A stretch of 64,000 nt of DNA from assembly GCA_001184205.1 (NCBI GenBank), contig LBMP01000006.1, positions 1 to 64,000 on the forward strand, read 5' to 3'. Of the stretch, positions 15,271 to 38,870 are shown one piece after another (the stretch's first letter is position 1; every line of letters starts with the position of its first letter). Position numbers and translations under genes: made by a program. The DNA is from Desulfocarbo indianensis. GTDB lineage: Bacteria; Desulfobacterota; Desulfarculia; Desulfarculales; Desulfarculaceae. The notes beneath the pieces were generated by a model. That model was given only the letters and a program-made list of their open reading frames with translations, was not told the DNA's origin and did no database searches.

Positions 15271-15348
15271 GCCGGGACAAAAAAATCCACCCGATCCCTC
15301 TTGGACCGGATGGCCGATATTGGTAGCTAGGTTTTGGTCAGGGGCGAA

Positions 15349-19194: not shown

Positions 19195-19196
19195 TT

Positions 19197-22191: not shown

Positions 22192-23456
22192 ATAACTCCA
22201 TGGAGAGTTAAAAGTTGTCCTAATTCATCTAGACCTCGCGCAACAACACCTTCATACTTGGCCCGTTCAGCGGGAGGTGCAAACGCAAGCGCACCTCCTG
22301 TAAAACGCCGGACTCCTTCATCTTGATATCGGAGATAAGCTGCTGCGGCTGCTGCAACATCCTTTGACTCAGAGTAAGATAGCTTATCACGGAGGTAACC
22401 CTTAACTGTTGTATCATGCAACTTAGCTTTTAGAAATGCGGCACGTCTTACAAGGCAAGGAATGCACTCACCACAATGTGTAAGATTATGCCGCTGATAC
22501 TTACCGCAGCTGGTGGAAATACCTACTAGGCTCACGAGTTTTTTGCTATCAGCGCAGCTGCGCATCAATTCTCCCTTTGTTTTATCCCGGTATGGAAAAA
22601 CAAGCCGCGCCTGGACACCTACCGCGTCCCAAATATCTTGAAGGTCCGTCATGAAGACTGGATGCGTCGTTTTTGTGCTAAGGCTCCCGAGACGTCCCGG
22701 CCCAAGCGGCACATTCAGACTAATGAAACCGTTCTCTGGAACGACAATTTCGACAGGGCTTTTCTTGCTTGACGACAATGCTGACGCTGCCAGCGCAGCA
22801 AAAGCGAAGAAGAGGATGGATCTAGCCCGGGTCGATTTCTCGGAAGCGCCTGGATGCTGTACCGCAAAGCTCCATTGCAGGTGACTGTCCTCGCCTCCAA
22901 GTGCAGTGGCGAACTTCCTTTGCGTTTCTTTGTCACCCCGCACTACCTGAGAGACAAAGAGTGATTTCTTACCGTCAGTTGTGAGGTCAATAGCACCGAC
23001 TAGACTATCTATACCGCCTGACAACAGACACACGCAATCGGCATCAATTTTTCGCGGTTTTTCCGCCCTAGGAGGCTTCATACCACCGGATTGAAAACGC
23101 AGTGACCAGAAGTCGCCGGTGAGAAACCGAAACATGTTCTCAAGTTCAGAGCGTTTGGCATTCCATACAGATGGGACAGCAAGGGAGACACTCAGATTTA
23201 TCATTCGAGTCCATCCATCAGGACTGCCATTTCGCTGAATGGCCTTATCGGCTGCAGAAACAGCTGAAGCGATTACAGCGAAATCCCAAGCTTCTACGGT
23301 GGGAGCAAGGTTTGCCCTACGGATAGCAGTTGGCAACTGCAATGCGACATGCCCGATCTCATCACGTCCTGTGGCCGAGAACATGGAAAGGTAGAGCGCT
23401 TCAGGATCAAAACGCTTAGGCAGACTTTCCTTCGGGCAACATATCACTTTTTTCAT
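22188..23456 (-). CDS. qatC: QatC, QueC-like PP-loop protein
   Basis: A 422-residue protein with a PP-loop LLSGGIDSLVGA near residue 145, as in QueC 7-cyano-7-deazaguanine synthase, and a late Cys-rich stretch (CGKYQRHNLTHCGECIPC) that fits the QueC zinc site. In Qat defence systems this protein is essential, but its substrate is unknown. The ATG overlaps the end of QatB by 4 bp. Confidence 0.88.
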   Translation of the reverse strand: MKKVICCPKESLPKRFDPEALYLSMFSATGRDEIGHVALQLPTAIRRANLAPTVEAWDFAVIASAVSAADKAIQRNGSPDGWTRMINLSVSLAVPSVWNAKRSELENMFRFLTGDFWSLRFQSGGMKPPRAEKPRKIDADCVCLLSGGIDSLVGAIDLTTDGKKSLFVSQVVRGDKETQRKFATALGGEDSHLQWSFAVQHPGASEKSTRARSILFFAFAALAASALSSSKKSPVEIVVPENGFISLNVPLGPGRLGSLSTKTTHPVFMTDLQDIWDAVGVQARLVFPYRDKTKGELMRSCADSKKLVSLVGISTSCGKYQRHNLTHCGECIPCLVRRAAFLKAKLHDTTVKGYLRDKLSYSESKDVAAAAAAYLRYQDEGVRRFTGGALAFAPPAERAKYEGVVARGLDELGQLLTLHGVI

Positions 23457-24313
23457 AGCGCCCCCTCGTAGACGATGAACGTATTTTCAATCGCGGCTTG
23501 TAAGACAGACTGTAGCTGACTTGATGTGGCATGGGGTTTCCCTCTCCGCAATGCATCAACCTGTGCGCTCAGTTCAGCCTTCAAATAGTCTCTCATTTCT
23601 TTCATGCGTGTTACACGTATACGAGGACTAATCGACGATTTTTCAAACACTTGTCCTATATCCAAGGACAGTCGGTAAAATGCTTCATAACCCAAATATG
23701 ACTCTATAAGCTCCCAAATGTTGTTATCGTTCAGATTCAAGAGATCTATGTTGGGATATTTCGCAAGAAGGTCTTCAGTGGCTTGCGCCATGGACTGCTG
23801 GGATGCCACCTCGTCTTGGCTACCGCCAGTCGGAGTCGTGTGTTTCAGGATTTCGTCGGCAATCTCTTGTGCGCTGGCATTCCGCGCAGTAAGGGATTCA
23901 ACCCAGTTCTTAATAGCTGAGTCTGTCTTTTCGCGAGCAGCTTGTAAAAAACCAAACGCATTAGCGGCAATTCGCGCAGACGTCCGCATGCGAGTTGCTG
24001 CGTTTCTCGAACCTCCCATGCCGGTGCGGGAGTAGTGACCGACCGCCCTTCTGAATGCATCCTCGCTGCCCGTGCGTACAAAATCTCGCAGTGCCCTGCG
24101 AGCGTTTGCAAAACGTCGCGGTGGTGCGACCTCTTGGGGCATGCCAGGTGGTTCTGCGGGGGGCTGCTGACCATCCCCAGTCCCGGTGTCGTCTGGTCTC
24201 TGATCATTTTGGGCCTGCTCGTCCCCGGCTTGTTCCGACTCTATATCGTCAAGCCATGGAGGGTCGAAAGGGACGCCGGGGCCGGGGCCGTTACTTGATC
24301 CTGAAGTTCCCAT
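23453..24313 (-). CDS. qatB: QatB
   Basis: A 286-residue protein with a Pro/Gly/Asp-rich disordered first 80 residues, then helices (FANARRALRDFVRTGSEDAF, RRAVGHYSRTGMGGSRNAATR) characteristic of QatB proteins. Its role in defence is unknown. It starts immediately after the QatA stop and overlaps QatC, so the four genes are one transcript. Confidence 0.85.
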   Translation of the reverse strand: MGTSGSSNGPGPGVPFDPPWLDDIESEQAGDEQAQNDQRPDDTGTGDGQQPPAEPPGMPQEVAPPRRFANARRALRDFVRTGSEDAFRRAVGHYSRTGMGGSRNAATRMRTSARIAANAFGFLQAAREKTDSAIKNWVESLTARNASAQEIADEILKHTTPTGGSQDEVASQQSMAQATEDLLAKYPNIDLLNLNDNNIWELIESYLGYEAFYRLSLDIGQVFEKSSISPRIRVTRMKEMRDYLKAELSAQVDALRRGKPHATSSQLQSVLQAAIENTFIVYEGAL

Positions 24314-26185
24314 CTATGACTTCCCCCCCAGATTGGTGATTGCATTCCTTACTTGCATGGGCGATTTTTCGTCGGCACCCCACCGCTCCAATAGGTCTTT
24401 TGCCCATTCTTCATGCCTTATCAACGGAATCAGCGGTGCGAGCCGATTTGTTGCGGGAATCTCGTTTAGCATATTGACATACGCAGGTCCTAAGGTGGGA
24501 AAGGCTTTGGGGACGTGTAGTGCCTGAACAAGTGACAATCGATCCCACTGGTTTGATCGAGCCTTGCGCCGGATACGGCTCAGTATCCTGTCCGCTTCAG
24601 CTTCACCCAGCGTTTTTAGTTGATCAACAAGCGGCGTCATGATTGTGTCGGCCTCTAAAAGCCCCTCCAAAAGGGCTCGCCCTTCAGGTGAGAGCTCATC
24701 AAAACTGGCTAAGGATAGAGCTCGATCGCGACTCAGATACAGCAGCGGACGTAAATCAACATCACCGAGTCTTGGATTTAGCTTCAACCAATCAGAGATG
24801 AACGGCCCATTCCAGCTCGCGTCGGGCATTACTGGGTTATCGCCCTTAGCCAGCGCTTCTTCAATTTTCGCGATGAAGTTGGCCTTTCCGTCCTCACGAT
24901 CCATCACTTGTTTTGCAAGGTACTCAAACGCAGCCGGCGATGCGCAGCGCTCGAATAACTGAATCTTAATTAGTTGATCGAAGGCTATACTGAGGCCTTG
25001 GGATTTTGCGACGACATCCCGAATCATTAGGTTGTTTAGAAAGCGCTTAATAAGGCGTGGATTGCCATCAATTCCGTGAGCAGAAACCATCAGGCTAGCG
25101 ACCTGGTCCGCAATATCTATCTCTAGATTCAGCTTGCCTGCATTTGTGCCATAGGCTTCTTCCATCTTCTTGCGAGTAAGACCGCCCGCCCAGGATTGAC
25201 GTACTGCTTCAAGAATAGTGGACTGTGCTGCTAATCGTTCCTCCCTAGAGATTTCTCCCTTACGCTCGACAAGTTCCGCAAGGAGAAGTAGCAAGTAGCC
25301 TTTAACTTCCGTGACACCCAACCTCGGCACTTTGAGCGGGACCTGTATCAGCTTGTCGAAGTAGCTTGTGACAAGTTCATCGTTCAGATCAACGTTCCCA
25401 AAGTGTGCGCGAACAGCTCCCCGTATCATCTGTTCGTCAGCAGCAATGATGAAAGCAGTTCGAGGGAGGAAAAGCAGCAATCGCATCGCTTCTAGCGTTG
25501 AAATTGCAGTATCAGGAAGACAACGGTCAAGGTCATCCACCAGAACAACGAGTGTTACCTTTAAGGACGCAAGTAGGTCTTCAAAAACACCACGTAGCTC
25601 TTGTATCTCTTGCGGAAGAGATTTGTTCTCCTTCTCTTTGAGCATCCCGGCGAGTTCTGGTTGAAGAGATGCATACGCCTCTTGAACTTTCTCGATATCA
25701 TTTACGCTCGCGTCTGGGCCTGCTTTACAGAGTCCACCAACTGCGCCGATGACAGCGCCTAGTGGGCCGCCAATTGTTCCACCTAGGAGCGCACCAGAGG
25801 CGATGGGGGTAAGTAGCTTTCCAACGCGGAGCCAGTTCACACGTTTAAGGAAGTCTATAGCCTTATCCACTTGGGACTTGCGCGTATTGGCTTCCACAAC
25901 CAATCTGTCTGCTACGGATTGAAGCAGCGCCATACGTGCGTCATCGTAACCTTGATATAGCCACGCATTGAATTCTAGAAAGACATATTCTTGTTTATCG
26001 GTATCCGTTTCCTTCAGCGATGCCCCTATCATTTTTACCAAGGAGGATTTCCCCGCCCCCCAGCTTCCTGACACACCAATAGAAAGGGGCTGACCAGCGG
26101 ATTCGCGTACGAGCTGGGCGGCAGTGTCCGCAATAACAGTGAAGTTGAGCAGATCTTCGATTGTCTCTATGTCATGCCACATCAT
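24314..26185 (-). CDS. qatA: QatA, KAP-family P-loop NTPase
   Basis: About 623 residues. Walker A GSWGAGKSSLVK near residue 50, a hydrophobic hairpin (LLTPIASGALLGGTIGGPLGAV) at about 125-150 typical of KAP NTPases, and Walker B VVLVDDLDRCLP near 215. It is the first gene of the QatABCD operon. The set looks like a cargo block with lower GC-rich codon bias than its neighbours, sitting between a toxin-antitoxin pair and the element backbone. Start uncertain between 26194, 26185 and 26182. Confidence 0.9.
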   Translation of the reverse strand: MMWHDIETIEDLLNFTVIADTAAQLVRESAGQPLSIGVSGSWGAGKSSLVKMIGASLKETDTDKQEYVFLEFNAWLYQGYDDARMALLQSVADRLVVEANTRKSQVDKAIDFLKRVNWLRVGKLLTPIASGALLGGTIGGPLGAVIGAVGGLCKAGPDASVNDIEKVQEAYASLQPELAGMLKEKENKSLPQEIQELRGVFEDLLASLKVTLVVLVDDLDRCLPDTAISTLEAMRLLLFLPRTAFIIAADEQMIRGAVRAHFGNVDLNDELVTSYFDKLIQVPLKVPRLGVTEVKGYLLLLLAELVERKGEISREERLAAQSTILEAVRQSWAGGLTRKKMEEAYGTNAGKLNLEIDIADQVASLMVSAHGIDGNPRLIKRFLNNLMIRDVVAKSQGLSIAFDQLIKIQLFERCASPAAFEYLAKQVMDREDGKANFIAKIEEALAKGDNPVMPDASWNGPFISDWLKLNPRLGDVDLRPLLYLSRDRALSLASFDELSPEGRALLEGLLEADTIMTPLVDQLKTLGEAEADRILSRIRRKARSNQWDRLSLVQALHVPKAFPTLGPAYVNMLNEIPATNRLAPLIPLIRHEEWAKDLLERWGADEKSPMQVRNAITNLGGKS

Positions 26186-26221
26186 TCCGTCCACTTTTAC
26201 GGTTGCAGAAGGATTATTAAT

Positions 26222-26773: not shown

Positions 26774-26837
26774 AAGGATCTGTCAGGTGTTACGTGATAG
26801 GATGCCCTGATGTCTGGCTGAATGCTGCAAAGCATCA

Positions 26838-28079
26838 ATGGAAAAGGATGTGACCGAAAAGCCAACTAAATACAAATGGAGCTTTCCCGCTCGTTTTCGC
26901 GCCCGCAGTTTTGGTTGGCGTTCTTCACGGCTGGCTTGCCAACGGCTACGGGAGGCGGTTTCGGAGATCAAGAAGGTTGCCCGCAAGGACTCGGTGCTCG
27001 GAGGTGAGGGCGCGGTCAAACTGATGGAGAAGATTTGGCCGGCACTCGAGCAAGTGGACTCATCCTCCGGGGCCTTGGGCACTGCCGTCAACAAAGCCCT
27101 TGATGCCTTGGTCCCTCTGGTCATCGAGGCCCCGGCGGGGGATAAGATCAGGGCTCGTTGGCTGGAGCGACTCTGGCAGGCCATACAAGAGGACGGCGTG
27201 GATTACCTGGCCCCTCTTTGTGAGCGCTGGGGGGAGGTGTGCGGCACCCCTGAAAGGGCTTCCACCTGGGCTGACGAGCTCATATCCACGGTCAAGTTGG
27301 CCTGGAGCCATGAGCATCGCGGCTATTTCGTGGGCACAACCGCCTGCCTGTCTTGCCTGCTCACGGCGGGGCGCAACCAGGAGGTCCTGGACCTGTTGGA
27401 GCTGGCTCCCTTCACTTCGTGGCACTACCGGGTTTACGGAATGAAGGCTTTGCTGGCTATGGGGAAAAAGGCAGAGGCCCTGAAGTATGCGCGGGCCTCT
27501 GGTGGGTTGAACGATGACCCCACCGCCATCGCCCTGGCCTGCGAGGAGATACTGCGGTCATCCGGATTAGAAGAAGAGGCCTACCAGAAATATGCCCTGC
27601 CCGCCTACACCGGTTCTCCGGGGCTGGCCACTTTCCGGGCAGTGCTAAAGCGATTTCCGGAACGTGACCCCAACGAGGTCTTCGCTGATCTGGTGGAACA
27701 GACACCTCCGAGCCAAAAGGGGAAATGGTTCGCCACAGCCAAGCATCTTGGACTCTATGATCAGGCTTTACGCCTCGTGCAAGATGGTCCCACCGATCCC
27801 CGCACCCTGAATCGCGCGGCCCGGGACTTCCTTGACGAAAGGCCGGACTTCGCCTTGGGTGCCGCTTTGGCCTCGCTGACTTGGATGGCCCGAGGATACG
27901 GGTATGACATCACCATATCGGATGCCGAGTTCGCGGCTTCCCGTGCCTTGAGCGCGGCTGAGAAGATAGGGGTGGCGGGTGGGGTTCGAGAAAAGCTGCG
28001 GGCGCTGGGCGCCCAAGACCAATCCATGCACGGCATCGTCCGGTTGGCCTTGGCTAAGGTCTTGCCGCCAACCGATTGA
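26838..28079 (+). CDS. Uncharacterised helical-repeat protein
   Basis: A 413-residue protein, helix-rich throughout, with repeated helix pairs (YRVYGMKALLAMGKKAEALK, ATFRAVLKRFPERDPNEVF) like TPR or HEAT-type arrays. The first 130 residues are a distinct domain (FPARFRARSFGWRSSRLAC, GEVCGTPERASTWADEL). Similar proteins occur in mobile elements but I cannot name the family. It is separated from the divergent gene by the palindrome at 26.76 kb. Confidence 0.65.
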   Translation: MEKDVTEKPTKYKWSFPARFRARSFGWRSSRLACQRLREAVSEIKKVARKDSVLGGEGAVKLMEKIWPALEQVDSSSGALGTAVNKALDALVPLVIEAPAGDKIRARWLERLWQAIQEDGVDYLAPLCERWGEVCGTPERASTWADELISTVKLAWSHEHRGYFVGTTACLSCLLTAGRNQEVLDLLELAPFTSWHYRVYGMKALLAMGKKAEALKYARASGGLNDDPTAIALACEEILRSSGLEEEAYQKYALPAYTGSPGLATFRAVLKRFPERDPNEVFADLVEQTPPSQKGKWFATAKHLGLYDQALRLVQDGPTDPRTLNRAARDFLDERPDFALGAALASLTWMARGYGYDITISDAEFAASRALSAAEKIGVAGGVREKLRALGAQDQSMHGIVRLALAKVLPPTD

Positions 28080-28139
28080 GGAACTTTAGGAAGCGTTTGC
28101 CGGCGCTTTGGAATGGGGAGGCGAGGCATCCCCTCCCCA

Positions 28140-28337
28140 TTAGAAGTCAATGTAGTCGCTGGGATCGACCACGTTGCGTAGTTGCTTCAAACGCTCGTCC
28201 ACAAAGTAGCGCTTGCCATCGATGTCGATGACCGGCAGCATTCGCGGTCCGGCGCCTGAGTTCTTTGCTGATTCAGCTAGGAACGCCTCAAGGGCTTTTT
28301 CCCTTTTCTCGGTTTCCAATATTCCAGTGTCTTTCAT
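28140..28337 (-). CDS. Hypothetical small protein
   Basis: A 65-residue protein, ATG 28337 with GAGGTGATGCGC upstream. Ends LPVIDIDGKRYFVDERLKQL, then NVVDPSDYIDF, a compact hydrophobic block often seen in small mobile-element proteins. It follows the gene at 28348-28992 by 10 bp in the same operon. Function unknown. Confidence 0.55.
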   Translation of the reverse strand: MKDTGILETEKREKALEAFLAESAKNSGAGPRMLPVIDIDGKRYFVDERLKQLRNVVDPSDYIDF

Positions 28338-28347
28338 GCGCATCACC

Positions 28348-28992
28348 TCATATCTCCCCTCCAGGGGCTTCCTTCTCAGCGGGGGGAAGGAAGGCCCCGG
28401 GGCCGAGGCCCCTGAGGTTGGCATCCACCGGGTAGGAGAATGGCAAGCTGTAAGTGGTGGCTCTTTGCCCGCGCTCGTGGCTGGCCTGCCGGAAATGCAC
28501 CTCGCCGTAGTCCTCCGGAAATAGTTCATGCACCTTGCGCTGCGCTTCCCTCATCTCGGTCTGCCGCGCCAGTTCCATCATTTCTGCTTGCAGCAGGTCC
28601 GCCTCTCCAGGAGACAGTGCCATCTCGAGATCGAAGTATTCCACCATGACCAGCTCAGGCCCCAGTTCGGCCACCTCGTCCGACTCCAGCGGGAAGCCCC
28701 TGGATTTCATGTACTCCACCAGGCAATGAATCTTGAAGGATGGCTGGCCGTCCTTCATTTCCACCTCCCGGTGGGTGTCGTGGGAGTGCCCGTAATGGGC
28801 ATCCACGAACTGGCCAAGCGCTTCCATCAGAGACTCGATGTCTCCGAATCTTGGCCGAAGAAATGGGATCGGCTTCCATCCGCCGTCACGGCCGCGAAAT
28901 GTTTTCTGGATGGTGATGGCCATGTCACCGTCCTGGTCCTTGTACACATTCACCCAGATGCGCCCTTTCCTAATGCTGGTTATTTTTTCCAT
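28348..28992 (-). CDS. Protein with PC4/'IRAG'-like N-terminal domain
   Basis: A 214-residue protein. Its first 60 residues (IRKGRIWVNVYKDQDG, ITIQKTFRGRDGGWK, FGDIESLMEALGQFV) follow a small beta-sheet pattern found in many plasmid-borne proteins that resemble PC4 ssDNA-binding domains. The rest is acidic and unrecognised. A degenerate copy of the start of this gene lies in inverted orientation at 29144-29238, so this promoter-plus-gene was once duplicated. ssDNA binding is inference. Confidence 0.6.
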   Translation of the reverse strand: MEKITSIRKGRIWVNVYKDQDGDMAITIQKTFRGRDGGWKPIPFLRPRFGDIESLMEALGQFVDAHYGHSHDTHREVEMKDGQPSFKIHCLVEYMKSRGFPLESDEVAELGPELVMVEYFDLEMALSPGEADLLQAEMMELARQTEMREAQRKVHELFPEDYGEVHFRQASHERGQRATTYSLPFSYPVDANLRGLGPGAFLPPAEKEAPGGEI

Positions 28993-28996
28993 GTTC

Positions 28997-29136
28997 TCAC
29001 CTTGTTAAGTTATTGCGCTCCCAATGAAGCCGGGAAATCCATAAATCTTTAGGGCCTCCGGACCGACCCTCTCTACAGAGAGGGGAAAGATTTAGGAAGG
29101 TTCCCGGCGGCGCAATGACCTAACTTAACAAGGTGA
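28997..29136. repeat. Large inverted repeat near the origin
   Basis: The left arm starts TCACCTTGTTAAGTTATTGCGC (28997 on) and the right arm ends GCAATGACCTAACTTAACAAGGTGA (to 29136), with further matches inward (CCCGG, AAATCTTTAGG against GAAAGATTTAGG). Arms of about 50 bp enclose GGCCTCCGGACC (29053-29064) and a small CCCTCTCTacAGAGAGGG hairpin. It holds the promoter of the minus-strand gene and a mirror-image copy facing the origin. Confidence 0.7.
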
Positions 29137-29143
29137 AGAAGAA

Positions 29144-29238
29144 CTGGAAAAATTCCAGCCAATCCGGGCGCATTATTGTTTACAAGGACCACATTTCATA
29201 CATGGCCATTACCATCCCATTATCTCCCATCGCGGCGG
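29144..29238 (+). pseudogene. Degenerate copy of the 28.35-kb gene start
   Basis: The sequence matches the opening of the 214-residue gene in blocks: CTGGAAAAA (ATGGAAAAA in the gene), GGGCGCAT, TACAAGGACCA, ACATGGCCAT, ACCATCC and CGCGGC, in the same order. The start codon has become CTG and the frame is not kept. It is the remnant of the mirror-image gene implied by the inverted repeat. Confidence 0.6.
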
Positions 29239-29299
29239 GGTCTATATAGCGCCTAATGATCGTGAGGCCTCGGGCGTAAATATGATTGTATCTGGGGGA

Positions 29300-29522
29300 G
29301 TAAATGTCCCGTGGAAGTTGCTAGCCATTATTGTATTTATATTTATTATTTATTTTCTATATAGCAATAAATAATAAATAGGATGTTGAAACAGTCAAAC
29401 AAATCTCCACAGGAAAACTACTCCCACGCTGAACTCAATGTTGCCACTGGCTAATGAAGAGAAAAGGATAAATACACATTGGCTTCCAGTGGAAATAGGG
29501 CTAGTAAATGTCCTGTGGAAAA
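29300..29522. other. Putative Orc1/Cdc6 origin with ORB-like repeats
   Basis: Four sites resemble archaeal origin recognition boxes: TCCCGTGGAA (29307-29316), TCCTGTGGAG on the minus strand within 29405-29417, TTCCAGTGGAAA followed by TAGGG (29484-29500), and TCCTGTGGAAAA (29511-29522). Between the first and second lies an AT-only stretch with a perfect 15-bp inverted repeat, TATTTATTATTTATT (29340-29354) and its complement (29366-29380), a likely unwinding element. Location beside the orc1/cdc6-type gene matches archaeal origins. Activity is inferred. Confidence 0.65.
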
Positions 29523-30766
29523 TGGCGACACAACAAGAGACAAGCTCGCAGAGCACGGAAAACCTCATAGAAGCCCTTCACGTGGATCGTAAGAGAAGAT
29601 CTCTGATCACCAACCATATCTACCTGGATGACGAAAAGTTGCCGGAGGACGAGCGTACGGCCGTTTTACGGGAGATTTTCAATCGCAACATACGGGAGAA
29701 GCAGTTGAGCCGGATCATATCCCATCTGACGCCCGTATTGGATGGAGATCATCCTCCATCCGCTTTGGTATACGGGCCCACCGGCTCGGGTAAGACCGTG
29801 ACCCTGATGCACGTGCTTTCTTCTTTTCAGCAGGTCGCCGGCAAACATGGCGTGGCTTTTCGCTACGCCTATATCGATCTATCCTCTCCCAAGACCTACT
29901 TCGGGGCCTTGAATGAATTGGCCATAGCCCTGGACGGCTCCAACCGCAGATATCGTAAGGGCATACCCATCGAGTACATGCAGGCGCGCATCGTGGAAGC
30001 CTTGGATGGCGTGCAAGGCTTCATGTGCCTGCTCATAGACGAGGCTGACAACATCAAACCCAACGTGGATTCTTTTCTCACCTTTCTGGGCAAGACCCTG
30101 CCACGAAAGGTGTCCTGTCGATTGATCCTGGTCTTGCTCACCAACCGGCTGGACTGGGAAAAGGCCTTGGACCCGCGCATACTGAGCTTCTTCAAGAAGA
30201 CCGACATAATCTTCGAGCCATACGATGCCATGGACCTTCTGGAAATACTCAAGATCAGGGTCGAGAAGGCGCTGAATAAAGACAAGGTGGAAGAAGCGGC
30301 TATTAAGAAGGTGGCCGCCTGTGCATCTCGGGAAACCGGCGACGCCCGCAAGGCGGTGGAGCTGTTGGCCAAGGCGGTGATCGTGGCCGAGGAAAGCACG
30401 GGGCGCCTTACCGAGGCGGAGGTCGACTTGGCCGAGGAGCGCTTGGAGATGGACAAAACCGAGGCCCTCATTCGCGCCCTCGCCACCCAGCAACGCCTGG
30501 CCTTGGAGGCCTGTTATCTCTCCGTGGGTCAGAACAACCGGCGCTCAGCCACCGGGCAAGTCTATGAGGTCTACCGCAGAGTCTCTATGCAGGAAGGGGT
30601 GAGTCCTCTGACCCAGAGACGTTTCTCGGATATGATCAGCTTCCTGGATCTCTATGGGTTAGTTACGGCGAGGGCCATCTCCAAGGGGCGTTATGGCTAC
30701 ACCAGGGAGATAACCGGGTGCTTGCCCAGGGAGCTTGTCAAAAGGGCCCTGAGCCATGCCCGCTAG
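29522..30766 (+). CDS. cdc6: Orc1/Cdc6-family replication initiator
   Basis: About 414 residues. AAA+ domain with Walker A YGPTGSGKT (84-92) and Walker B CLLIDEADNI (169-178), then a lid region (SRETGDARKAVELLAKAV) and a C-terminal winged helix (TQRRFSDMISFLDLYGLV). The GDARKA sensor-2 segment and the domain order are those of archaeal Orc1/Cdc6, which bind ORB sites at origins and load MCM. No MCM gene is in the window. ATG 29522 overlaps an ORB-like site; 29438 is the longest frame but has no ribosome site. Such a protein is unusual in a bacterial setting. Confidence 0.85.
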   Translation: MATQQETSSQSTENLIEALHVDRKRRSLITNHIYLDDEKLPEDERTAVLREIFNRNIREKQLSRIISHLTPVLDGDHPPSALVYGPTGSGKTVTLMHVLSSFQQVAGKHGVAFRYAYIDLSSPKTYFGALNELAIALDGSNRRYRKGIPIEYMQARIVEALDGVQGFMCLLIDEADNIKPNVDSFLTFLGKTLPRKVSCRLILVLLTNRLDWEKALDPRILSFFKKTDIIFEPYDAMDLLEILKIRVEKALNKDKVEEAAIKKVAACASRETGDARKAVELLAKAVIVAEESTGRLTEAEVDLAEERLEMDKTEALIRALATQQRLALEACYLSVGQNNRRSATGQVYEVYRRVSMQEGVSPLTQRRFSDMISFLDLYGLVTARAISKGRYGYTREITGCLPRELVKRALSHAR

Positions 30767-31011
30767 AGCAGATCGAATTCTCGCAGAAATATACGCCGTT
30801 CTTTACGAAGGATTTCTTGTTGGGTGGCAGCCAGGAAGGCACTTTCCATGGTTATGGCTTCCAATTCCCTTGGGGAACCACCCTCGAGCCTTTCCAACTC
30901 ACGGCGGGACTGACGAGCCATCAGACTAAGGTCCCGCAAACGCTGCGATTCAAAAAGGGTGTCGGCACCAGACTCGGATAGAAGGTGGGTGCGGGGTAAC
31001 TCCCGTTCCAT
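30763..31011 (-). CDS. Small helical protein (paralogue of 59.4-kb gene)
   Basis: An 82-residue helical, charged protein whose core SQRLRDLSLMARQSRRELERL and tail ILRKERRIFLREFDLL correspond to DIHRLRDLRLMLRNSHREIVRL and LERRILESEMGF of the protein at 59396-59632. Its ATG directly follows the stop of the zinc-ribbon gene (TGAATG). The pair arrangement zinc ribbon then small helical protein is repeated at 59.4-59.8 kb. It converges on the Orc1/Cdc6 gene, overlapping by 4 bp. Function unknown. Confidence 0.65.
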   Translation of the reverse strand: MERELPRTHLLSESGADTLFESQRLRDLSLMARQSRRELERLEGGSPRELEAITMESAFLAATQQEILRKERRIFLREFDLL

Positions 31012-31155
31012 TCAGATCACCATCTTGCGCGTCTTGAATTTGCGTCCACAGTCTTTGCATTTTCGCAGGCGCACTTTGCCTTGCTGTAACGGTCTGAATC
31101 CTTTCCAGATGGTGCGGGTGCCGCCGCAATAGGGGCATTTGAATGGTCTCGCCAT
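31012..31155 (-). CDS. Small zinc-ribbon protein
   Basis: A 47-residue protein: MARPFKCPYCGG, then a helix-turn region (WKGFRPLQQGKVRLRK) and CKDCGRKF. Two CxxC pairs make a classic zinc ribbon, as in the N-terminus of some IS1 InsA-like or transcription factor proteins. GAGGTGATGACTG precedes the ATG. Likely nucleic-acid binding. A paralogue occurs at 59629-59775. It is expressed divergently from a lipoprotein gene across a promoter with the GGTCC palindrome. Confidence 0.7.
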   Translation of the reverse strand: MARPFKCPYCGGTRTIWKGFRPLQQGKVRLRKCKDCGRKFKTRKMVI

Positions 31156-31189
31156 CAGTCATCACCTCGGATTTTCGAATGAGGCCCCT

Positions 31190-31246
31190 CCTTAATATAT
31201 TTTTCGGTCCGGTTGGCCCCGGCCGGGGACCGAAAAGCATATAAAC
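31190..31246. promoter_or_regulatory. Divergent CGAAA/TATA promoters around a palindrome
   Basis: Minus strand: GGACCGAAAAATATATTAAGG (box centred near 31197) for the zinc-ribbon gene. Plus strand: GGACCGAAAAGCATATAAAC (box near 31242) about 26 bp from the lipoprotein ATG at 31268. Between them lies GGCCCCGGCCGGGGACC (31215-31231) and GGTCCGG at 31206. Each promoter is a purine-rich CGAAA element abutting a TATA-like box, as in archaea. Confidence 0.6.
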
Positions 31247-31267
31247 CTGCTTTGCCTGTGAATCCAC

Positions 31268-31792
31268 ATGACCCGAAAAGCTTTTGCAGCGGCTTATCTG
31301 CTCGGACTCTGTTTACTTCTAGCCGCATGCGGACATACCGACACTCACGCGGCCCAGGAACCTGGTTCCGGCGTCGCGATACAGGAGCGGCTGAAAGCCT
31401 TGGACCAATGGATGGAGAGCAACCCCTGTGGGGTGTTGCGGATGCGCCAACCGTTTTTCAATGTGAGCGGTGAGGTGACCGCCAAGGTCGAGCCCGGTAG
31501 CCATGTGTACCTCTACACGGCCCATAACACATCCTTGGCGGGAGCGATCTATGTGACCGAGCATTGCCACGCCATCACCAGGATGCCGATCAACGAAGAT
31601 AATTCCTTCTCGATCAACAGTCTTCCCTTGGGAACTTATGTACTCTCCGTCCCCATCGACTCATTCGGGCCCGCACAAGGATTCCCGGTGGTGAGGGAAT
31701 TCAATCGAAGCGGGCATTCCCTGCAGGTGGCCTTTCATGGCGGCGACAATAGGCATTCTTTGTGCGCCTTCACCGTAACGGCCACCTCTTGA
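31268..31792 (+). CDS. Predicted lipoprotein (paralogue of 59.9-kb gene)
   Basis: A 174-residue protein with a signal peptide and lipobox LLAAC (Cys21), so it should be lipid-anchored outside the cytoplasmic membrane. The mature part (EVTAKVEPGSHVYLYTAHN, LPLGTYVLSVPIDSF, QGFPVVREFNRSG, HGGDNRHSL) is a beta-rich domain shared with the protein at 59878-60393. Domain not recognised. The start has no ribosome site and lies about 26 bp from a TATA-like box, a leaderless arrangement. Confidence 0.75.
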   Translation: MTRKAFAAAYLLGLCLLLAACGHTDTHAAQEPGSGVAIQERLKALDQWMESNPCGVLRMRQPFFNVSGEVTAKVEPGSHVYLYTAHNTSLAGAIYVTEHCHAITRMPINEDNSFSINSLPLGTYVLSVPIDSFGPAQGFPVVREFNRSGHSLQVAFHGGDNRHSLCAFTVTATS

Positions 31793-31795
31793 ATT

Positions 31796-31839
31796 GGTCC
31801 CGGGACCTGGAACCGAAGGTTTTATATAGGTCCTGGACC
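31796..31839 (+). promoter_or_regulatory. Promoter between two GGTCC palindromes
   Basis: A perfect GGTCCCGGGACC (31796-31807), then ACCGAAGG and TTTATATA (31821-31828), then GGTCCTGGACC (31829-31839). The start at 31852 is about 27 bp from the TATA-like box. The second palindrome lies between box and start, where a bound regulator would block transcription. Confidence 0.6.
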
Positions 31840-31851
31840 ATTGACATGACC

Positions 31852-32697
31852 ATGGAATGCGAACAGGCCCCAGCCATCACCATGCAGAGCCCGGTCTATG
31901 TCAATACGGAGAAGCCAGATATCTCACGGTCGAAAGACCGCCCGCTCGAACAGCAAACCAATCCATTACTCGTGGCCTTGGCGCGGGTGGAGAAAAGAAT
32001 CGAGCGATTCAAGGCAGAGGCTAGGGACTTCTATCTGAAGGTGATGCTATCCGTCCATACCTGTGAGCAATGCGGTGGGGGCCTTGAGATGATCGGTCGT
32101 AGCCTGTGTGTTTGCAGGGCTTGCGCGGCACGGATCGATCCGACCACGGCATTCCAACGCAGCCTTTGCTGCGGGGCGGTGCTGGTTAGTAAGCGGACCC
32201 ACTATGCCTGCTCCGGCTGCGGCCGGATAGCGCCATCCCGCTTTCTCTTCAACGAACGCCTCTTCGATGAGGACTATTTCAGGGAAATGATGCGATCATC
32301 CCGGGAAAGGGCTCGGCGCAAGAAGGAAGCCCTCCGGCAGGCGGTACTGGAAAACAGGTCCGAACACCTTGTCCTGGACCAGGAGCCTGATTTGGAGGCC
32401 GTCCCTGGCCTGGCCGAAGCCTTGAACGCGTTTCTGAACTCCTCTTCACTCGACTTGGAGGCTATGGAGGAGGTGACAAGAAGCTTTAACTTAGGCGCCT
32501 ACCGGCGCCACATCCTGGAATGTCTCGGCTGGGGCGCGACACCATTCGCGTCCATCCCGCAGCTGCAAGGGCAAGTCAGGTTGGACCGGGTGTTCAGATT
32601 CGTGACCCTGGTTTTCATGGATCAAGCCGGGGAGGTGGAGTTGGACCAGGAACAAGGCGAACTGCTGGTCCAGAGGGTTTTCCATGAAGCTGACTAA
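31852..32697 (+). CDS. Hypothetical zinc-motif protein
   Basis: About 281 residues. After a helical segment comes a Cys cluster, CEQCGGGLEM, CVCRACAA, LCCGA and CSGCGRI (residues about 66-125), which looks like two zinc ribbons. The rest is charged and helical. Unknown family. ATG 31852 fits the spacing from the TATA-like box; 31846 is an in-frame alternative. Overlaps the next gene by 14 bp. Nucleic-acid binding is plausible only. Confidence 0.6.
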   Translation: MECEQAPAITMQSPVYVNTEKPDISRSKDRPLEQQTNPLLVALARVEKRIERFKAEARDFYLKVMLSVHTCEQCGGGLEMIGRSLCVCRACAARIDPTTAFQRSLCCGAVLVSKRTHYACSGCGRIAPSRFLFNERLFDEDYFREMMRSSRERARRKKEALRQAVLENRSEHLVLDQEPDLEAVPGLAEALNAFLNSSSLDLEAMEEVTRSFNLGAYRRHILECLGWGATPFASIPQLQGQVRLDRVFRFVTLVFMDQAGEVELDQEQGELLVQRVFHEAD

Positions 32698-33046
32698 CAA
32701 GGACAAGGAGTTCCTGGAGCGGCTCCACCGCCTCCTGGAGCAAAAGGAGCTTTCGGTGGACCTCGTGGATCGAGGCCTGAAGCAGATGGTGCTGCGGGGC
32801 AATTACGGTGATCGTATTGACCAGAGCTTTGGCATGACCCGGCAGGGAGTCAGATGGCGCTTCCAGCGCCTTTTCAACGATGTCTATGTCTCTGCCTATG
32901 AAACGATCTATTTCCTTGAAAGCCTGATAGGCCCGGAGCTCAGGGCCTATGCCCTGGAGATCGCCAAGGAGCGCGTGGCCCTGAGAAAAAAAGCCCAAAA
33001 AACCACTGATCCAGGTTTTTACCGTCGAGAAGACCGGTCCGTATAG
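32684..33046 (+). CDS. Hypothetical helix-turn-helix-like protein
   Basis: A 120-residue protein with a stretch YGDRIDQSFGMTRQGVRWRF that reads like a helix-turn-helix (the turn at the Gly, then TRQGVRWRF as recognition helix). Otherwise charged and helical. It overlaps the previous gene and is likely co-transcribed. No family assigned. Confidence 0.5.
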   Translation: MKLTNKDKEFLERLHRLLEQKELSVDLVDRGLKQMVLRGNYGDRIDQSFGMTRQGVRWRFQRLFNDVYVSAYETIYFLESLIGPELRAYALEIAKERVALRKKAQKTTDPGFYRREDRSV

Positions 33047-33301
33047 CCCGTTCCTGGGCTATCCAAATTGTAAAGGGATTTGCCCTCCGGTGATCGAGGA
33101 CCAAATCCGCCCACGATACAGAGGGCGGAGATGCCTCAATCCATCAAGCACCCCTCCCGCGCACCACGGCCACCGAATCGCGCGGTTTTCGGTGGGATGG
33201 GGTCTGGTGCTGTAGGGTGGGCGGAGGGGAAAGAATTTTTTTAACATGGCCTTCAGGCCTATCCGCTCAAAGAAGGCCGCATTTGAATCAAAAAGGCAGG
33301 G
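33047..33301. other. Intergenic region with small inverted repeats
   Basis: No gene seen. It contains CCACCGAA (33170-33177) and TTCGGTGG (33188-33195) as an inverted repeat, a possible terminator or operator before the next gene, and a GGATTTG / CAAATCC pair near 33078-33112. No clear TATA-type box with CGAAA was found. Confidence 0.35.
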
Positions 33302-33724
33302 GTGAAAAAAACGCCAAGCACCAAGATCGAACTCAACGCCAACAAGGTTGCCCGCATTCAGGACATGGAAGAGCTAGCCAGGCTGCTGTTCCCGGGCAAC
33401 CGAAACCATCAGCGGATATTCCTGGCTGTCTTCATAGAGCTCAAATACGCTCCCGGACAATACATGCCTAGCCTGGACCATCTCTGCCAAGAATACGATT
33501 TTACCAAACGCATCCTGGAGACAGTCCGAAGCAAGATGCGTCGCATGGGTCTGATTGATCACGTCTCCAGATTCAACCCACACCATGGCTACAGAGAGGG
33601 ATGGGTATTCTCCAGCCGATTCAACAGAACACTCGGAAGGCTCTCCAATTTACTTTCTGACTTCAAGGATCGGAAGGGAACCAACCAGGAGAAGAAGGAC
33701 CGCGACTTGTTTAGGTATCTGTGA
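33302..33724 (+). CDS. Winged-helix-like protein
   Basis: A 140-residue protein starting at a GTG after AGGG. The middle (NHQRIFLAVFIELKYAPG, then LDHLCQEYDFTKRILETV, SKMRRMGLIDHVSRF) has the layout of a winged helix with a wing near HHGYREGWVF. A DNA-binding role in plasmid regulation or replication is likely. Unknown family. Confidence 0.55.
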   Translation: MKKTPSTKIELNANKVARIQDMEELARLLFPGNRNHQRIFLAVFIELKYAPGQYMPSLDHLCQEYDFTKRILETVRSKMRRMGLIDHVSRFNPHHGYREGWVFSSRFNRTLGRLSNLLSDFKDRKGTNQEKKDRDLFRYL

Positions 33725-33819
33725 CCGATCCACAAGGACCAACGCCCTCGCACGATGCGAGGACGTTGCTATCCTGCTCTGATGACAGCTGCTGCTGGCC
33801 CGCCGTAGGTGGGCCAGCT

Positions 33820-33866
33820 CAATTCCCCATCCCCCTTTGGGGGAGGGGGCTAGGGGGTGGGGGGAA
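33820..33866. repeat. G-rich repeat, quadruplex-capable
   Basis: Between 33839 and 33864 runs of 5, 5, 5 and 6 G are separated by A, CTA and T, preceded by CCCCATCCCCC. The plus-strand repeat can form a G-quadruplex. It lies between convergent genes. The full stretch looks like a short interspersed repeat known from many genomes. The rest of 33725-33890 has no gene. Confidence 0.5.
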
Positions 33867-33890
33867 TAAAAAAACACCCTTTCGGGCGCT

Positions 33891-34223
33891 TCAAAAATCA
33901 AAACAACCACCCATGGGAATCCACAAATCAGGTGTCTCGATTCTCGCCAATCTCCGAGGCTTTTTACGAACACATTTGATTACAACAGCTGGACCGGACA
34001 ACCCATCAGGCCTGTAATAAACACGTCTCTCAGGAAAATAATAACCCCTGCAAGAATCACAAACCGCAAATCCAGCATCGACCTCCAATCTCGACAACTC
34101 TTCACCACACAGCAAACACACATACCTCCCCTGGCAAGCATCGCAAATCACAGACCCGCCAGATACCTCGCAACTACAAACCAAACACAACTCCTTAACT
34201 ACTTTTTCAGCTTCGGGTTCCAT
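33891..34223 (-). CDS. Zinc-finger-like protein
   Basis: About 110 residues with three Cys pairs in a row: CLVCSCE, CDACQGRYVCLLCGEEL and CDSCRGYYF. The last 40 residues are basic. ATG 34223 has GGAGGTGATTTAT upstream. In the leader lies an IR (34238-34268) and further up a divergent promoter region. Probably a zinc-dependent nucleic-acid or protein binder; unknown family. Its DNA is visibly less GC-rich than most neighbours. Confidence 0.6.
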   Translation of the reverse strand: MEPEAEKVVKELCLVCSCEVSGGSVICDACQGRYVCLLCGEELSRLEVDAGFAVCDSCRGYYFPERRVYYRPDGLSGPAVVIKCVRKKPRRLARIETPDLWIPMGGCFDF

Positions 34224-34237
34224 ATAAATCACCTCCA

Positions 34238-34268
34238 TCAAACCCTTCTATTTTTTGAAGGGTTTGAT
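34238..34268 (-). promoter_or_regulatory. Leader hairpin of the zinc-finger gene
   Basis: ATCAAACCCTTC (34238-34249) pairs perfectly with GAAGGGTTTGAT (34257-34268) with an AT loop. In the minus-strand message the hairpin ends about 15 bases before the start codon and covers the approach to the ribosome site, so it may tune translation. Confidence 0.4.
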
Positions 34269-34280
34269 GCGGCCGCCCGA

Positions 34281-34385
34281 GGTTTGGGACACGTTAAGCG
34301 GACCCCTCGATAAAGCTTTCGGTCCCCGTCAGGACTAATCGGGACCGAAAGATTTACGATAAGGGGTCTGCGTGTGGCCCAAACC
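34281..34385. repeat. Long inverted repeat with mirror-image promoters
   Basis: Arms of about 50 bp: GGTTTGGG, then GACCCCT, TCG/ATAAAGCTTTCGGTCCC on the left, and GGGACCGAAAGATTTACGATAAGGGGTC, then GGCCCAAACC on the right. Each arm reads outward as GGGACCGAAAG followed by a TTTA-type box, so the palindrome contains two divergent CGAAA/TATA promoters around GGTCCCCG...CGGGACC (34321-34346). The left promoter would serve the zinc-finger gene; no gene is seen in front of the right one. Confidence 0.55.
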
Positions 34386-34521
34386 GGTAGTAGGTCTGGA
34401 TTCGCATACAGGTAATTGCCCTGCTCACGCCGTTCGCATGGAGATTTTAAAATATTCTTTCTTTGTCAGTTTTTTCAACACCAGATAACATGCAGAAATA
34501 ATTAAGTTAAATACCTTTGAT

Positions 34522-34639
34522 GGTGTGGTTTTAAAGCTCGCCATTAATCGCATTTTCCCCTCGGAAATGAGATTAAAACCACACCTGCAGGGGAATAAAT
34601 CCACAATGCCAGGGCATTAAATCCACACTCTTCATTACC
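34522..34639. repeat. Iteron-like repeats, 22-bp spacing
   Basis: TAAAACCACA (34574), TAAATCCACA (34596) and TAAATCCACA (34618) are direct repeats exactly 22 bp apart, two turns of the helix. An inverted TGTGGTTTTA (34524-34533) completes a hairpin with the first: GGTGTGGTTTTAA and TTAAAACCACACC are 13-bp perfect arms, with an inner stem at 34546-34574. Regular iterons of this kind bind initiator or partition proteins on plasmids. No gene covers 34242-34761. Confidence 0.55.
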
Positions 34640-34714
34640 AGCAATTTCTGCCTCGGTAATAGGCAACGTCAGGGGTGGACAGTTCGATCATCTTTTGACT
34701 ACCGGCAAGTGGGA

Positions 34715-34758
34715 AGCAATTTATTTAAACATAAGAGACCCACCCAGGACCCGGGACC
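34715..34758 (+). promoter_or_regulatory. TATA-type promoter and GGNCCCGGGACC palindrome
   Basis: TTTATTTAAA is centred near 34725 and GGACCCGGGACC (34747-34758, one base off the perfect palindrome) lies over the predicted start of transcription and directly before the ATG at 34762. No ribosome site is present. Confidence 0.5.
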
Positions 34759-34761
34759 AAA

Positions 34762-35241
34762 ATGATCAATTCAGGGCTTGAGTATAGGGTAGGCTATCAG
34801 CGGAACAGGGAATACCGTTCCGAGGGGGAGCGGCGGATCGCTCGCTTCCTACAGGACAACCACATCAGATACCAATATGAACCGGCCGTGCTGGTCAATG
34901 CACCGGAGGGGAAACCACGAATATGGTATCCCGATTTTCATTTGCCGGAGTTCAGCGCCTACATAGAATATTTCGGTTTGGCCGGTCGTCGCTCATACGA
35001 TGCAGGCGTGAAAAGAAAGCTGAAGACCTACGAGTCCATGGGCTACCAGGTCATCCCCATTTTCCCTTGGACCTTTGCCGAAGATTGGAAGGGCTACACC
35101 ATGTCTGAATTGAAGCGGGTGGCTCGCGGGAGATATGAAAATCTCATGTCTAAACCGTATTGGAGCAGTGCCCGCAAACAAACTTATGGATCAAGTAAGG
35201 CACGGGCACCCTACGGATCACGGCGAGGCGGATATCGGTAG
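34762..35241 (+). CDS. PD-(D/E)XK nuclease-like protein
   Basis: A 159-residue protein with SEGERRIARFLQDN, IRYQYEP, then WYPDFHLPEFSAYIEYFG: the Glu, PD and (D/E)X-hydrophobic pattern of PD-(D/E)XK nucleases akin to Vsr or archaeal resolvase-type enzymes. The last 30 residues are basic (ARKQTYGSSKARAPYGSRRG). It likely cuts or binds DNA; substrate unknown. It converges on the replication-relaxation gene. Confidence 0.7.
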   Translation: MINSGLEYRVGYQRNREYRSEGERRIARFLQDNHIRYQYEPAVLVNAPEGKPRIWYPDFHLPEFSAYIEYFGLAGRRSYDAGVKRKLKTYESMGYQVIPIFPWTFAEDWKGYTMSELKRVARGRYENLMSKPYWSSARKQTYGSSKARAPYGSRRGGYR

Positions 35242-35256
35242 GGCCGTCTGAGCTAA

Positions 35257-36189
35257 TCAGGCAGGTGATGCAGGCAAAGGAGATTCGTAGACCAGCGAGG
35301 GGCCCAAAATGGAGTGAGGGGGCGTTTGGTCTTTTCCGCCTCTGGCCCAGATGGCAGCGCCCAATCCTTTCTCGAAAACACGTTCTTGATCGGTAATCCA
35401 GATGAAGTCCGATGGCACCATCTCCTGTACCAGTCGGCATATGACAGCCATTCGCCCGGCGGTGTTGGCCAGGAATAGAAGGCGAAAGCCGTTGAACCTG
35501 CATCCCCAGAGTTCTTCATACCGCCTATAACGATTTGTACGAAAGTAGGCCTGGTAGTTTAGGATCTTCTGCCGAAGGTCCCTGCCTCCCGCGGTTGGGC
35601 TGGCCAAGGGCTCGGTGCCCATATCCACTTCCAAGAAGAACAATAGCGATTTCCGCTGACCCTGGTCGCCATTATTGATCGTGAAGACGCCATCAGGGAT
35701 GAAGTCCATCCACTTGTCCGCGGCAGAATCGACCACAACCCTATCCAGAACAGGCGATGAACCGTCAGGCAGCTGGGGTAGGAATGGCGAGTTGGAGGCT
35801 AGGAAGACGGTGTTCAGCGAAGGGTTGTGGTCTGTGATGCCCTGGAGGCCTATGCGAAACCAGTTGATCAAGAGCGTGTGATCGATGTCCCCGGTGGGCG
35901 AACCGGCTAAGGTATCCACGGAGAAGCCCCCCGAATCACCAAGGTGCTCCAGGAGTAGTTCTGCCCCGCTGGGGGTTAAAAGGAGCACATTTTCGGGTCT
36001 GCCGCGTTTGCGCCCCAATGGCCTGGGTAGCGTCTGGATCAGCCCATCCCCACAAAGTTCTCGCACGCGTCTTCCCAAAGATTTGGGGTTCCGGGCAGTC
36101 ACCAGGGCCAGCTGCTGCGTAGTCAAAGCAGAGTGATCTGCCAAGGCAGCAAAGATTTGTATATCTTGATCGGATGGTTTGCGTAGCAT
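35257..36189 (-). CDS. Replication-relaxation-family protein
   Basis: A 310-residue protein. The N-terminal winged helix (IQIFAALADHSALTTQQL, SLGRRVRELCGDGLIQTLPR, RKRGRPENVLLLTPSG) is that of replication-relaxation proteins, which on plasmids act in replication or mobilisation. The C-terminal half has a nuclease-like core (FFLEVDMGTEPLA, RRYEELWGCRFNGFRLLFLANT) and may be a PD-(D/E)XK domain. Found beside the iteron-like array, consistent with a replication role. Gap 36190-36394 holds no gene. Confidence 0.75.
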   Translation of the reverse strand: MLRKPSDQDIQIFAALADHSALTTQQLALVTARNPKSLGRRVRELCGDGLIQTLPRPLGRKRGRPENVLLLTPSGAELLLEHLGDSGGFSVDTLAGSPTGDIDHTLLINWFRIGLQGITDHNPSLNTVFLASNSPFLPQLPDGSSPVLDRVVVDSAADKWMDFIPDGVFTINNGDQGQRKSLLFFLEVDMGTEPLASPTAGGRDLRQKILNYQAYFRTNRYRRYEELWGCRFNGFRLLFLANTAGRMAVICRLVQEMVPSDFIWITDQERVFEKGLGAAIWARGGKDQTPPHSILGPSLVYESPLPASPA

Positions 36190-36394
36190 AGGCCATCACT
36201 GCTAGGGGCTTGTCGAATAAGCGGCAGGGGGGAAAGCGTGGTTTCACATTTAACCGTTCCGCGCCAGTATCAATGGATTTTTCTAGTTGTTTTTAATGAT
36301 CGAAAAATGCAGATGATCGCTAAACTGGCCGAAAGTAGCTTTGAGCCTGGACTATCCCTCGTAAATTCCTGTTTGCTGTGGAAATGTTCAACAT

Positions 36395-37114
36395 TTATTC
36401 GGTGGTTACTTTTACGATCTCAAGATCCTTTTTCACGTCTCGTCGATCTAAAGCTGACCATTTTTCTGCCACTAGCGGTAAATGGCAGTCCCGTAACTTC
36501 TTCCCACTGCCGCAAGGGCAAGGGTGGTGCCCTTTGGGCGTTTTTTTCATTGCAAGAAGCTCCATGAAGGCTTTTGTCTGAAATGCTCCCGGCAGCGGCT
36601 GGCCCCACTGTTCACGGTAAAAGTCAAAAATCCCCTCTCGTCCATGATCGCGGGCTCCCCAGGGTGGTGGCTCGTCATGGGCATCGTAATAGGCTTGCCA
36701 GACTATCCAGGGGTCAACAAGCCTTTCCAGAAACTTCACCAAGGTTGAGCCGGGTGGCCAGTGCAACTGGATTTCTGCATTGACCGCCAGGCAGGCTTGT
36801 CCTTGCCCAAAAACATGGCGGTCAGGGTTATGGCGCCAGGGCAATTTGGGGTCGTCACAGAACATTACTGGAGGACGGTCTGGAAAATTTGGCGGCGTTA
36901 GTAACGCAATTTTGTATTCAAGATGACTGTGGCTATTAGGGATTGCTACCTGATGCGTGCCATGAGCAACTACCGCTTCGGTTTCAAGTTTTGTATAACG
37001 GTTCAAAGGAAAGCCCGGTCTCATGATGCTGAGCCCCATAAGTGGGCTGGCCTTAGCCAATTCCCGCCGCTCCTTCTCGAAAAACTCGGGGTTCTTTTTG
37101 TACCAGGCGGTCAA
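36395..37114 (-). CDS. CBASS E2-like protein with SEC-C tail
   Basis: About 239 residues. The E2-like region has EYKIALLTPPNFPDRPPVMF, HVFGQGQACLAVN (candidate Cys) and STLVKFLERLVDPW. The tail HPCPCGSGKKLRDCH is a SEC-C zinc motif. E2-only proteins accompany the nucleotidyltransferase in short type II CBASS, where they link the enzyme to targets. The TTG at 37114 gives a TTGA overlap with the cyclase stop and has GGAG upstream; a longer frame to 37246 exists in a shadow. Confidence 0.8.
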   Translation of the reverse strand: MTAWYKKNPEFFEKERRELAKASPLMGLSIMRPGFPLNRYTKLETEAVVAHGTHQVAIPNSHSHLEYKIALLTPPNFPDRPPVMFCDDPKLPWRHNPDRHVFGQGQACLAVNAEIQLHWPPGSTLVKFLERLVDPWIVWQAYYDAHDEPPPWGARDHGREGIFDFYREQWGQPLPGAFQTKAFMELLAMKKTPKGHHPCPCGSGKKLRDCHLPLVAEKWSALDRRDVKKDLEIVKVTTE

Positions 37115-38728: not shown

Positions 38729-38870
38729 AGGGAAACGCCTCGTTTGCAGGGTATTGAAAATACCAAGCCACCGCGCAAATAATACCATATGTAGGTGTTA
38801 TTCCCATGGCAACCACTATATTTAGTTGCCAGTCTGCATATGAAAAGAGTTTCCAGACAGCCTGCCTTTT

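Follow-up and report, generated by a model that had tools for sequence, protein, structure and literature searches.

Replication initiators and helicases are thought to be split by domain, with DnaA and DnaB in bacteria and Orc1/Cdc6 and MCM in archaea and eukaryotes. Bacterial integrative elements that reside in tRNA genes and carry DnaA-independent replication initiators also exist. Inverted ORBs around an AT-rich stretch, beside the initiator gene, make up the anatomy of archaeal origins (PMC4010727, PMC5333045), for which the consensus ORB is CTTCCAGTGGAAACGAAAGGGGT (PMC4153887, Table 2). In Sulfolobus, both flanking boxes are required for origin activity (PMC12141716). We found no report of Orc1/Cdc6 origins in bacteria in the literature; only open-licence papers were covered, so one may have been missed.

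Here, we analysed a stretch of 64,000 nucleotides from Desulfocarbo indianensis (hereafter the window), which is part of a 363-kb contig (C290) in a genome of 5.1 Mb that is 98.65% complete. The original prediction was an Orc1/Cdc6-driven replicon in a bacterium. The protein, the bacterial host and the boxes with their AT-rich stretch held, the latter in eight loci; the replicon was refined to an integrative element, and its replication is inferred. The initiator gene and the sequence upstream of it comprise the following features.

29290 to 29317, plus strand: ORB-like box 1 (ATCTGGGGGAGTAAA-TGTCCCGTGGAAG), the best site in 363 kb (27.3 bits) with a matrix trained on other genomes
29318 to 29403, no strand: AT-rich, DUE-like stretch between the inverted boxes, 80% AT (maximum 93% in 40 bp), containing a 15-bp AT inverted repeat
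29404 to 29431, minus strand: ORB-like box 2, inverted relative to box 1, the second-best site in 363 kb (24.2 bits)
29459 to 29476, plus strand: promoter-like GAGAAAAGG-ATAAATACA upstream of orc1, with a resemblance to archaeal BRE/TATA that is strong in 4 to 5 of 8 loci and weak in the others
29483 to 29495, no strand: extra ORB core CTTCCAGTGGAAA that lacks the G-rich extension and does not rank with the top sites when the extended matrix is used
29494 to 29521, plus strand: ORB-like box 3, which reaches up to the start codon of orc1, the third-best site in 363 kb (22.3 bits)
29522 to 30766, plus strand: orc1, an Orc1/Cdc6-family initiator of 414 aa with AAA+ ATPase, lid and C-terminal winged helix (Pfam, TIGR02928, Foldseek)

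An Orc1/Cdc6 protein in a bacterial host

The product of the open frame from 29438 to 30766 matches Cdc6_C (75.8 bits), Cdc6_lid (45.6 bits) and AAA_22 in Pfam, and its score of 252.6 bits against TIGR02928, “orc1/cdc6 family replication initiation protein”, exceeds the cut-off of 181.3. Walker A and B, a Cdc6-type lid and a C-terminal winged helix were all found, which meets the criteria of the family and bears out the full AAA+ initiator that had been proposed. A Foldseek search with the predicted structure, which is of moderate confidence (pLDDT 66.5), returned 2qby_A (E=2.6e-21) as the best match, followed by 2v1u_A (E=6e-20), with 2qby_B also among the top matches; 2qby_A and 2v1u_A are archaeal Orc1 structures bound to origin DNA. 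The recognition helix and wing (TQRR...GRYGKTREI) are kept, from which binding to ORBs is inferred. Membership of a bacterial AAA+ family would have refuted the original prediction. Judged by profile and predicted fold, the window protein is a genuine Orc1/Cdc6 and not a member of such a family.

The start of orc1 is probably the ATG at 29522 rather than 29438, because the relatives start near there and the boxes then fall outside the coding region. With the relatives' starts near this internal ATG, it is most likely that neither the box at 29485 nor that at 29511 is coding.

At least seven other bacterial genomes, from two phyla, contain relatives of orc1, with identities of 54-77% and, in the most distant case, 43%. 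Identity to the window protein is about 70% in G331, G333 and G511, 54-59% in Hydrogenedentota and 43% in G517. A maximum-likelihood tree placed nine bacterial Orc1 sequences in one clade (100/100), beside and apart from the 12 archaeal sequences sampled. This tree contained only Orc1/Cdc6 sequences, without other AAA+ families, and its four longest branches had been removed. The donor lineage is unidentified because the archaeal sampling was narrow.

A far more divergent Orc1/Cdc6-like protein lies on a 3.4-kb contig (C355, locus L051) of genome G421 in the Hydrogenedentota set. It groups among the archaeal rows with weak support when the long branches are kept, and it may represent a second bacterial type or contamination; it was excluded from the conclusions. 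Other sources of orc1 were considered. Scans of IMG/VR and a search of a phage collection gave no relative of orc1 or p140 (a neighbour of orc1, listed below), and a viral origin was rejected on this ground. A bacterial-plasmid source was also rejected: among the matches listed from about 410 plasmid records, all came from archaea and none exceeded about 32% identity.

The host is a bacterium. Its genome encodes DnaA (227 bits) and, 4.5 kb further on in that contig, DnaN, as well as a single full-length DnaB (380 bits). No TBP was detected in the host or in four other orc1-bearing genomes, while archaeal controls were positive. The lack of MCM, noted originally for the window alone, extends genome-wide to five orc1-carrying genomes, in which PF00493 gave only weak AAA+ cross-matches (at most 33 bits in the window host) of the sort seen in every bacterial control. 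Besides the main dnaA, the host has a second DnaA-like gene (160 bits) at G000:C301:143137.

Could archaeal plasmid contigs have been mis-binned into bacterial genomes? Several of the genomes are MAGs, and the Orc1, the ORB-like boxes and a few BRE/TATA-like sequences look archaeal. However, GC content along contig C290, taken in 5-kb steps, stays at 50-63% until it shifts near 104 kb, and the contig runs on into 259 kb of mostly 59-69% GC with a tRNA-Gln; therefore, the window belongs to an island within a bacterial chromosome. Moreover, genome G331 is a single 4.8-Mb contig with its element inserted in tRNA-Asp, TBP was found in none of five genomes, and the bacterial copies form a single clade apart from the archaeal proteins sampled. 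Mis-binning was rejected on the strength of the single-contig genome, the GC-continuous chromosome and the lack of TBP; it is largely refuted and retains almost no credibility.

The relatives are patchily distributed. Cdc6_C scored above the cut-off in 3 of 395 genomes of a phylum-wide sample, 3 of 85 in the class of G331 (two of them new), 2 of 389 in the class of G333 (one new, a fragment), 1 of 63 in the window's own class and 5 of 68 in the Hydrogenedentota set. Such patchiness, most evident in the phylum-wide sample, together with the fragments in some genomes, would suit a relic, the decaying and now functionless trace of an earlier transfer. The same genome has a second orc1 copy, on contig C24, with 99% protein identity. 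Against a relic, the two copies differ by 39 synonymous and 3 nonsynonymous changes (dN/dS 0.022), with higher values of 0.09-0.31 in neighbouring genes, so that orc1 is under strong purifying selection. DNA similarity between the C24 copy and the window spans window positions 26795-36251. Within the 232-base origin, about 10 positions differ, none of them in the box cores or the AT inverted repeat. That all eight loci have intact frames and share the same origin also speaks against a relic, which we regard as very improbable.

The integrative element and its genes

In the single-contig genome G331, orc1 lies in a 68.2-kb element (approximately C1:4254489-4322772) with a complete tRNA-Asp at one boundary; at the other, the 3' end of this tRNA is repeated over 48 bp (92% identity), and a tyrosine integrase adjoins this distal repeat. 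G331 thus shows both hallmarks of an integrative element in a tRNA gene, an integrase and directly repeated tRNA 3' ends. The tRNA-Asp fragment proposed in the window proved to be real (about 52986-53031), and its last 40 bases match the 3' end of this complete tRNA-Asp. Therefore, we place the end of the window element at 53031; inferred from this match, the element extends there from beyond the contig start, and the complete tRNA-Asp would lie off the contig. The contig end cuts the element, which shows only one end. Another, different tRNA-Asp fragment ends at 67580, which suggests a further element in tandem. Thus, orc1 is part of an integrative element and not of the host's main replication system, and the host keeps DnaA and DnaN. 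The genes of the element and its end are as follows.

14333 to 15280, minus strand: ArdC-like anti-restriction protein (PF08401, PF18818)
17260 to 19224, minus strand: HerA/TraG-like DNA-translocating ATPase, common to elements (PF01935; best NCBIfam CedD, 86.8 bits; homologues in G331, G333, G442)
19197 to 19982, minus strand: PD-(D/E)XK / Dna2-like nuclease (PF12705, 81.7 bits; homologues in G331, G333)
31762 to 32697, plus strand: p311, cysteine-rich (zinc-finger-like) conserved partner (homologues beside orc1 in G511, G517, G442, G395)
32684 to 33046, plus strand: p120, small conserved partner with HTH-like helices (four other genomes have homologues next to orc1, at 53-62% identity)
33302 to 33724, plus strand: p140, small, probably DNA-binding conserved partner (homologues in all other orc1 elements examined; a short fragment only in locus L004)
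34762 to 35241, plus strand: 159-aa protein with a weak match to phage Holliday-junction resolvases (phrog_9019, E=1.1e-7; homologues in G331, G333)
35257 to 36189, minus strand: Replic_Relax (replication-relaxation) protein (PF13814, 63 bits; homologue in G333)
52986 to 53031, plus strand: tRNA-Asp 3' end, which is the right-hand attachment site of the element with orc1 (no mismatch to the G331 tRNA-Asp 3' end in the final 40 bases)

Of these partners, p311 and p120 are each present in five loci. PDB searches with p311, p120 and p140 gave no significant match, and a fold search with p120 gave no usable one. Subsets of the elements have in common the HerA/TraG-like ATPase, the PD-(D/E)XK nuclease, the ArdC-like protein, Replic_Relax and a DUF6094 methyltransferase with an SNF2-type helicase. 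Replic_Relax and the HerA/TraG-like ATPase bear on conjugation; no mating-pair or type IV secretion genes were recognised among the proteins scanned, which did not include all genes.

Replication and partition genes accompany orc1 in two relatives. The element of G331 has genes for a complete bacterial sliding clamp and a RepB-type primase, neither of which was found on any other element; apart from G331, each genome has at most one clamp gene. A conserved 125-aa protein adjoins orc1 in G331, and a single-strand-binding role for it is only a guess. In G517, and only there, a ParA ATPase gene (137 bits) lies directly downstream of orc1 and overlaps it. No strong DnaB match was found near any orc1 locus, and on the elements we recognised neither a dedicated helicase nor, Orc1 aside, a helicase loader.

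Several defence-like and other operons were also observed in the window. At 21448-26194 lies a Qat-type defence operon, which encodes QatA (402.7 bits), QatC (327.3 bits) and a TatD-like nuclease, with a fourth gene between QatA and QatC. At 36395-38788, a CBASS-like operon encodes a CD-NTase (368.8 bits) and an E2-like protein; its third gene is unidentified and may be that of the effector. In a ubiquitin-like operon at 2165-5254, genes for ThiF/E1 and JAB proteins stand on either side of a gene whose family is unknown, and the same three-gene set occurs beside the G333 element. The Type I restriction-modification locus at 40530-48073 has a RhuM-family gene between its M and S genes. A small zinc-ribbon-like gene (31015-31169 and 59635-59789) and the lipoprotein-like gene next to it (31268 and 59878) are each present as two diverged paralogues.

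Origin anatomy upstream of orc1

Four ORB-like sites in both orientations and a perfect 15-bp AT-only inverted repeat had been described beside the gene, and both descriptions are accurate. Exact copies of TCCNGTGGAA lie at 29307, 29485 and 29511, and a minus-strand copy at 29406 has one mismatch; the arms of the repeat lie at 29340-29354 and 29366-29380. The window contains five exact matches to TCCNGTGGAA, three of them within 214 bases at the origin, against 0.57 expected, and none of 100 shuffles reached five. For the 17-base AGTADNTKTCCYGTGGA there are three exact matches, at 29299(+), 29406(-) and 29503(+), with 0.19 expected when two mismatches are allowed. This pattern was derived from these very sites; therefore, the independent test is a leave-one-genome-out scan, in which a weight matrix built from the two flanking boxes of the other genomes was run on each held-out locus. 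The sites had first been located by eye with a similar consensus, and the held-out genome never entered its own matrix.

Across the 363-kb contig (about 727,000 positions), the top three sites were 29305(+), 29404(-) and 29509(+), the boxes listed above, and the next site scored 11.0 bits. The flanking pair ranked first and second in all eight loci. Each of these eight independent loci has an inverted ORB-like pair around an AT-rich stretch upstream of orc1, in the order plus-strand box, 86-168 bases, inverted box, and the best 40 bases are 70-97% AT. Most relatives have a third box at or near the orc1 start. A motif like the Sulfolobus ucm was matched within the AT-rich stretch in some loci only, and we do not claim that it is conserved.

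The bacterial box reads approximately GGTGGGTGAGTAGA-TTTCCNRTGGAAA. Tested against the archaeal consensus, its core matched; the 3' G-tract was not met, and a G-rich tract lies 5' of the core instead. As the G-rich extension is on the opposite side of the core, recognition of the box, to judge from its sequence, must differ partly from that in archaea.

The same boxes could be read as operators. Orc1 would then be a transcription regulator of its own gene and its neighbours, like Orc1-2 of Sulfolobus, a known non-initiator regulator (PMC9738581). One box does lie at the orc1 start, and the cognate helicase is absent. However, what is conserved is an inverted pair around an AT-rich stretch, present once per locus and always beside orc1; no further high-scoring boxes occur across the 363-kb contig, and two elements carry replication or partition genes (clamp and primase in one, parA in the other). 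A role in regulation only is the main rival, yet we think it unlikely, and the once-per-locus inverted pair with the par, primase and clamp genes fits a replicon better.

To the left of the origin (28997-29136) lies a perfect 16-bp inverted repeat, TCACCTTGTTAAGTTA, whose arms are 108 bases apart and which is kept in the C24 copy. BRE/TATA-like sequences (e.g. CCGAAAAGCATATAAAC) were observed at window positions 31206-31245, 59817-59850, 26756, 8187 and 59386. They lie about 20-50 bases ahead of several start codons of the island, with leaderless spacing at 31268 and 26722. We do not claim archaeal-type promoters on the element: relative to shuffles, the host chromosome shows about the same enrichment of the motif, which is only partly conserved ahead of orc1.

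Proposed mechanism and relation to known systems

Our data establish the protein family, the anatomy and conservation of the origin, the purifying selection, the bacterial host and the integrative element. We consider it probable that these constitute the replication module of an integrative element, in which an archaeal-type origin and the adjacent Orc1/Cdc6 work in a bacterium without MCM; DNA binding, melting, helicase recruitment, replication and autorepression are inferred. Under the proposed mechanism, Orc1-ATP would use its winged helix and AAA+ domain to bind the inverted boxes and would distort or open the AT-rich stretch between them. Upon excision of the element, a helicase would be brought to the opened stretch, and the host polymerase would then copy the element DNA. 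Through box 3 at the orc1 start, Orc1 may repress its own gene. The helicase could be host DnaB, recruited directly or perhaps via p311, p120 or p140, or one encoded by the element. Because MCM is absent from the tested genomes, host DnaB is the most likely candidate, an inference that remains the weakest step of the mechanism. A point against the mechanism is that, while integrated, the elements could simply be replicated passively by their host.

A broader reading is a cross-domain replicon, wherein Orc1/Cdc6 at an ORB origin loads a non-MCM helicase (that of the host, DnaB, or one of the element), works with a bacterial-type clamp and polymerase, and resides on elements shared between bacterial phyla; towards this we lean only slightly. 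A conserved and selected Orc1/ORB origin without MCM in bacteria implies that Orc1 is able to feed a bacterial replisome or else that it serves mobile DNA in some other important way, and either alternative makes the interchangeability of initiators and helicases directly testable. Beyond the chromosome-borne mobile element of the window host, the Orc1-ORB arrangement recurs in seven other, diverse bacterial genomes, and such elements are a possible route for origins to cross domains.

Bacterial integrative elements in tRNA genes resemble the present ones in the tyrosine integrase, the direct repeats of the tRNA 3' end, the anti-restriction and defence cargo and, in one case, parA beside the initiator. 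They differ in that the initiator here is Orc1/Cdc6 and not of the RepA, RepC, TrfA or relaxase type, and in that no type IV secretion genes were recognised here among the proteins scanned. Orc/Cdc6 origins of haloarchaeal plasmids and megaplasmids likewise have an element-borne orc1 beside ORB repeats with G-rich tracts, whereas their proteins are at most about 32% identical to ours and their hosts are archaea with MCM.

The archaeal oriC1 with Orc1-1/Cdc6-1 (Sulfolobus, Aeropyrum) shares with the bacterial loci the initiator family, including the best structural matches 2qby_A and 2v1u_A, an origin directly upstream of the initiator gene with an inverted ORB pair flanking an AT-rich stretch, and the ORB core TTCCANTGGAAA. 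In contrast, its boxes read core-GAAAGGGGT, whereas those of the bacterial loci read GGTGGGTGAGTAGA-core, and the bacterial loci lie on an integrative element, in hosts without MCM or TBP, and encode a separate protein clade. Taken together, the protein and the origin are of a known kind, and what is new is their residence in bacteria, the absence of MCM and the altered box.
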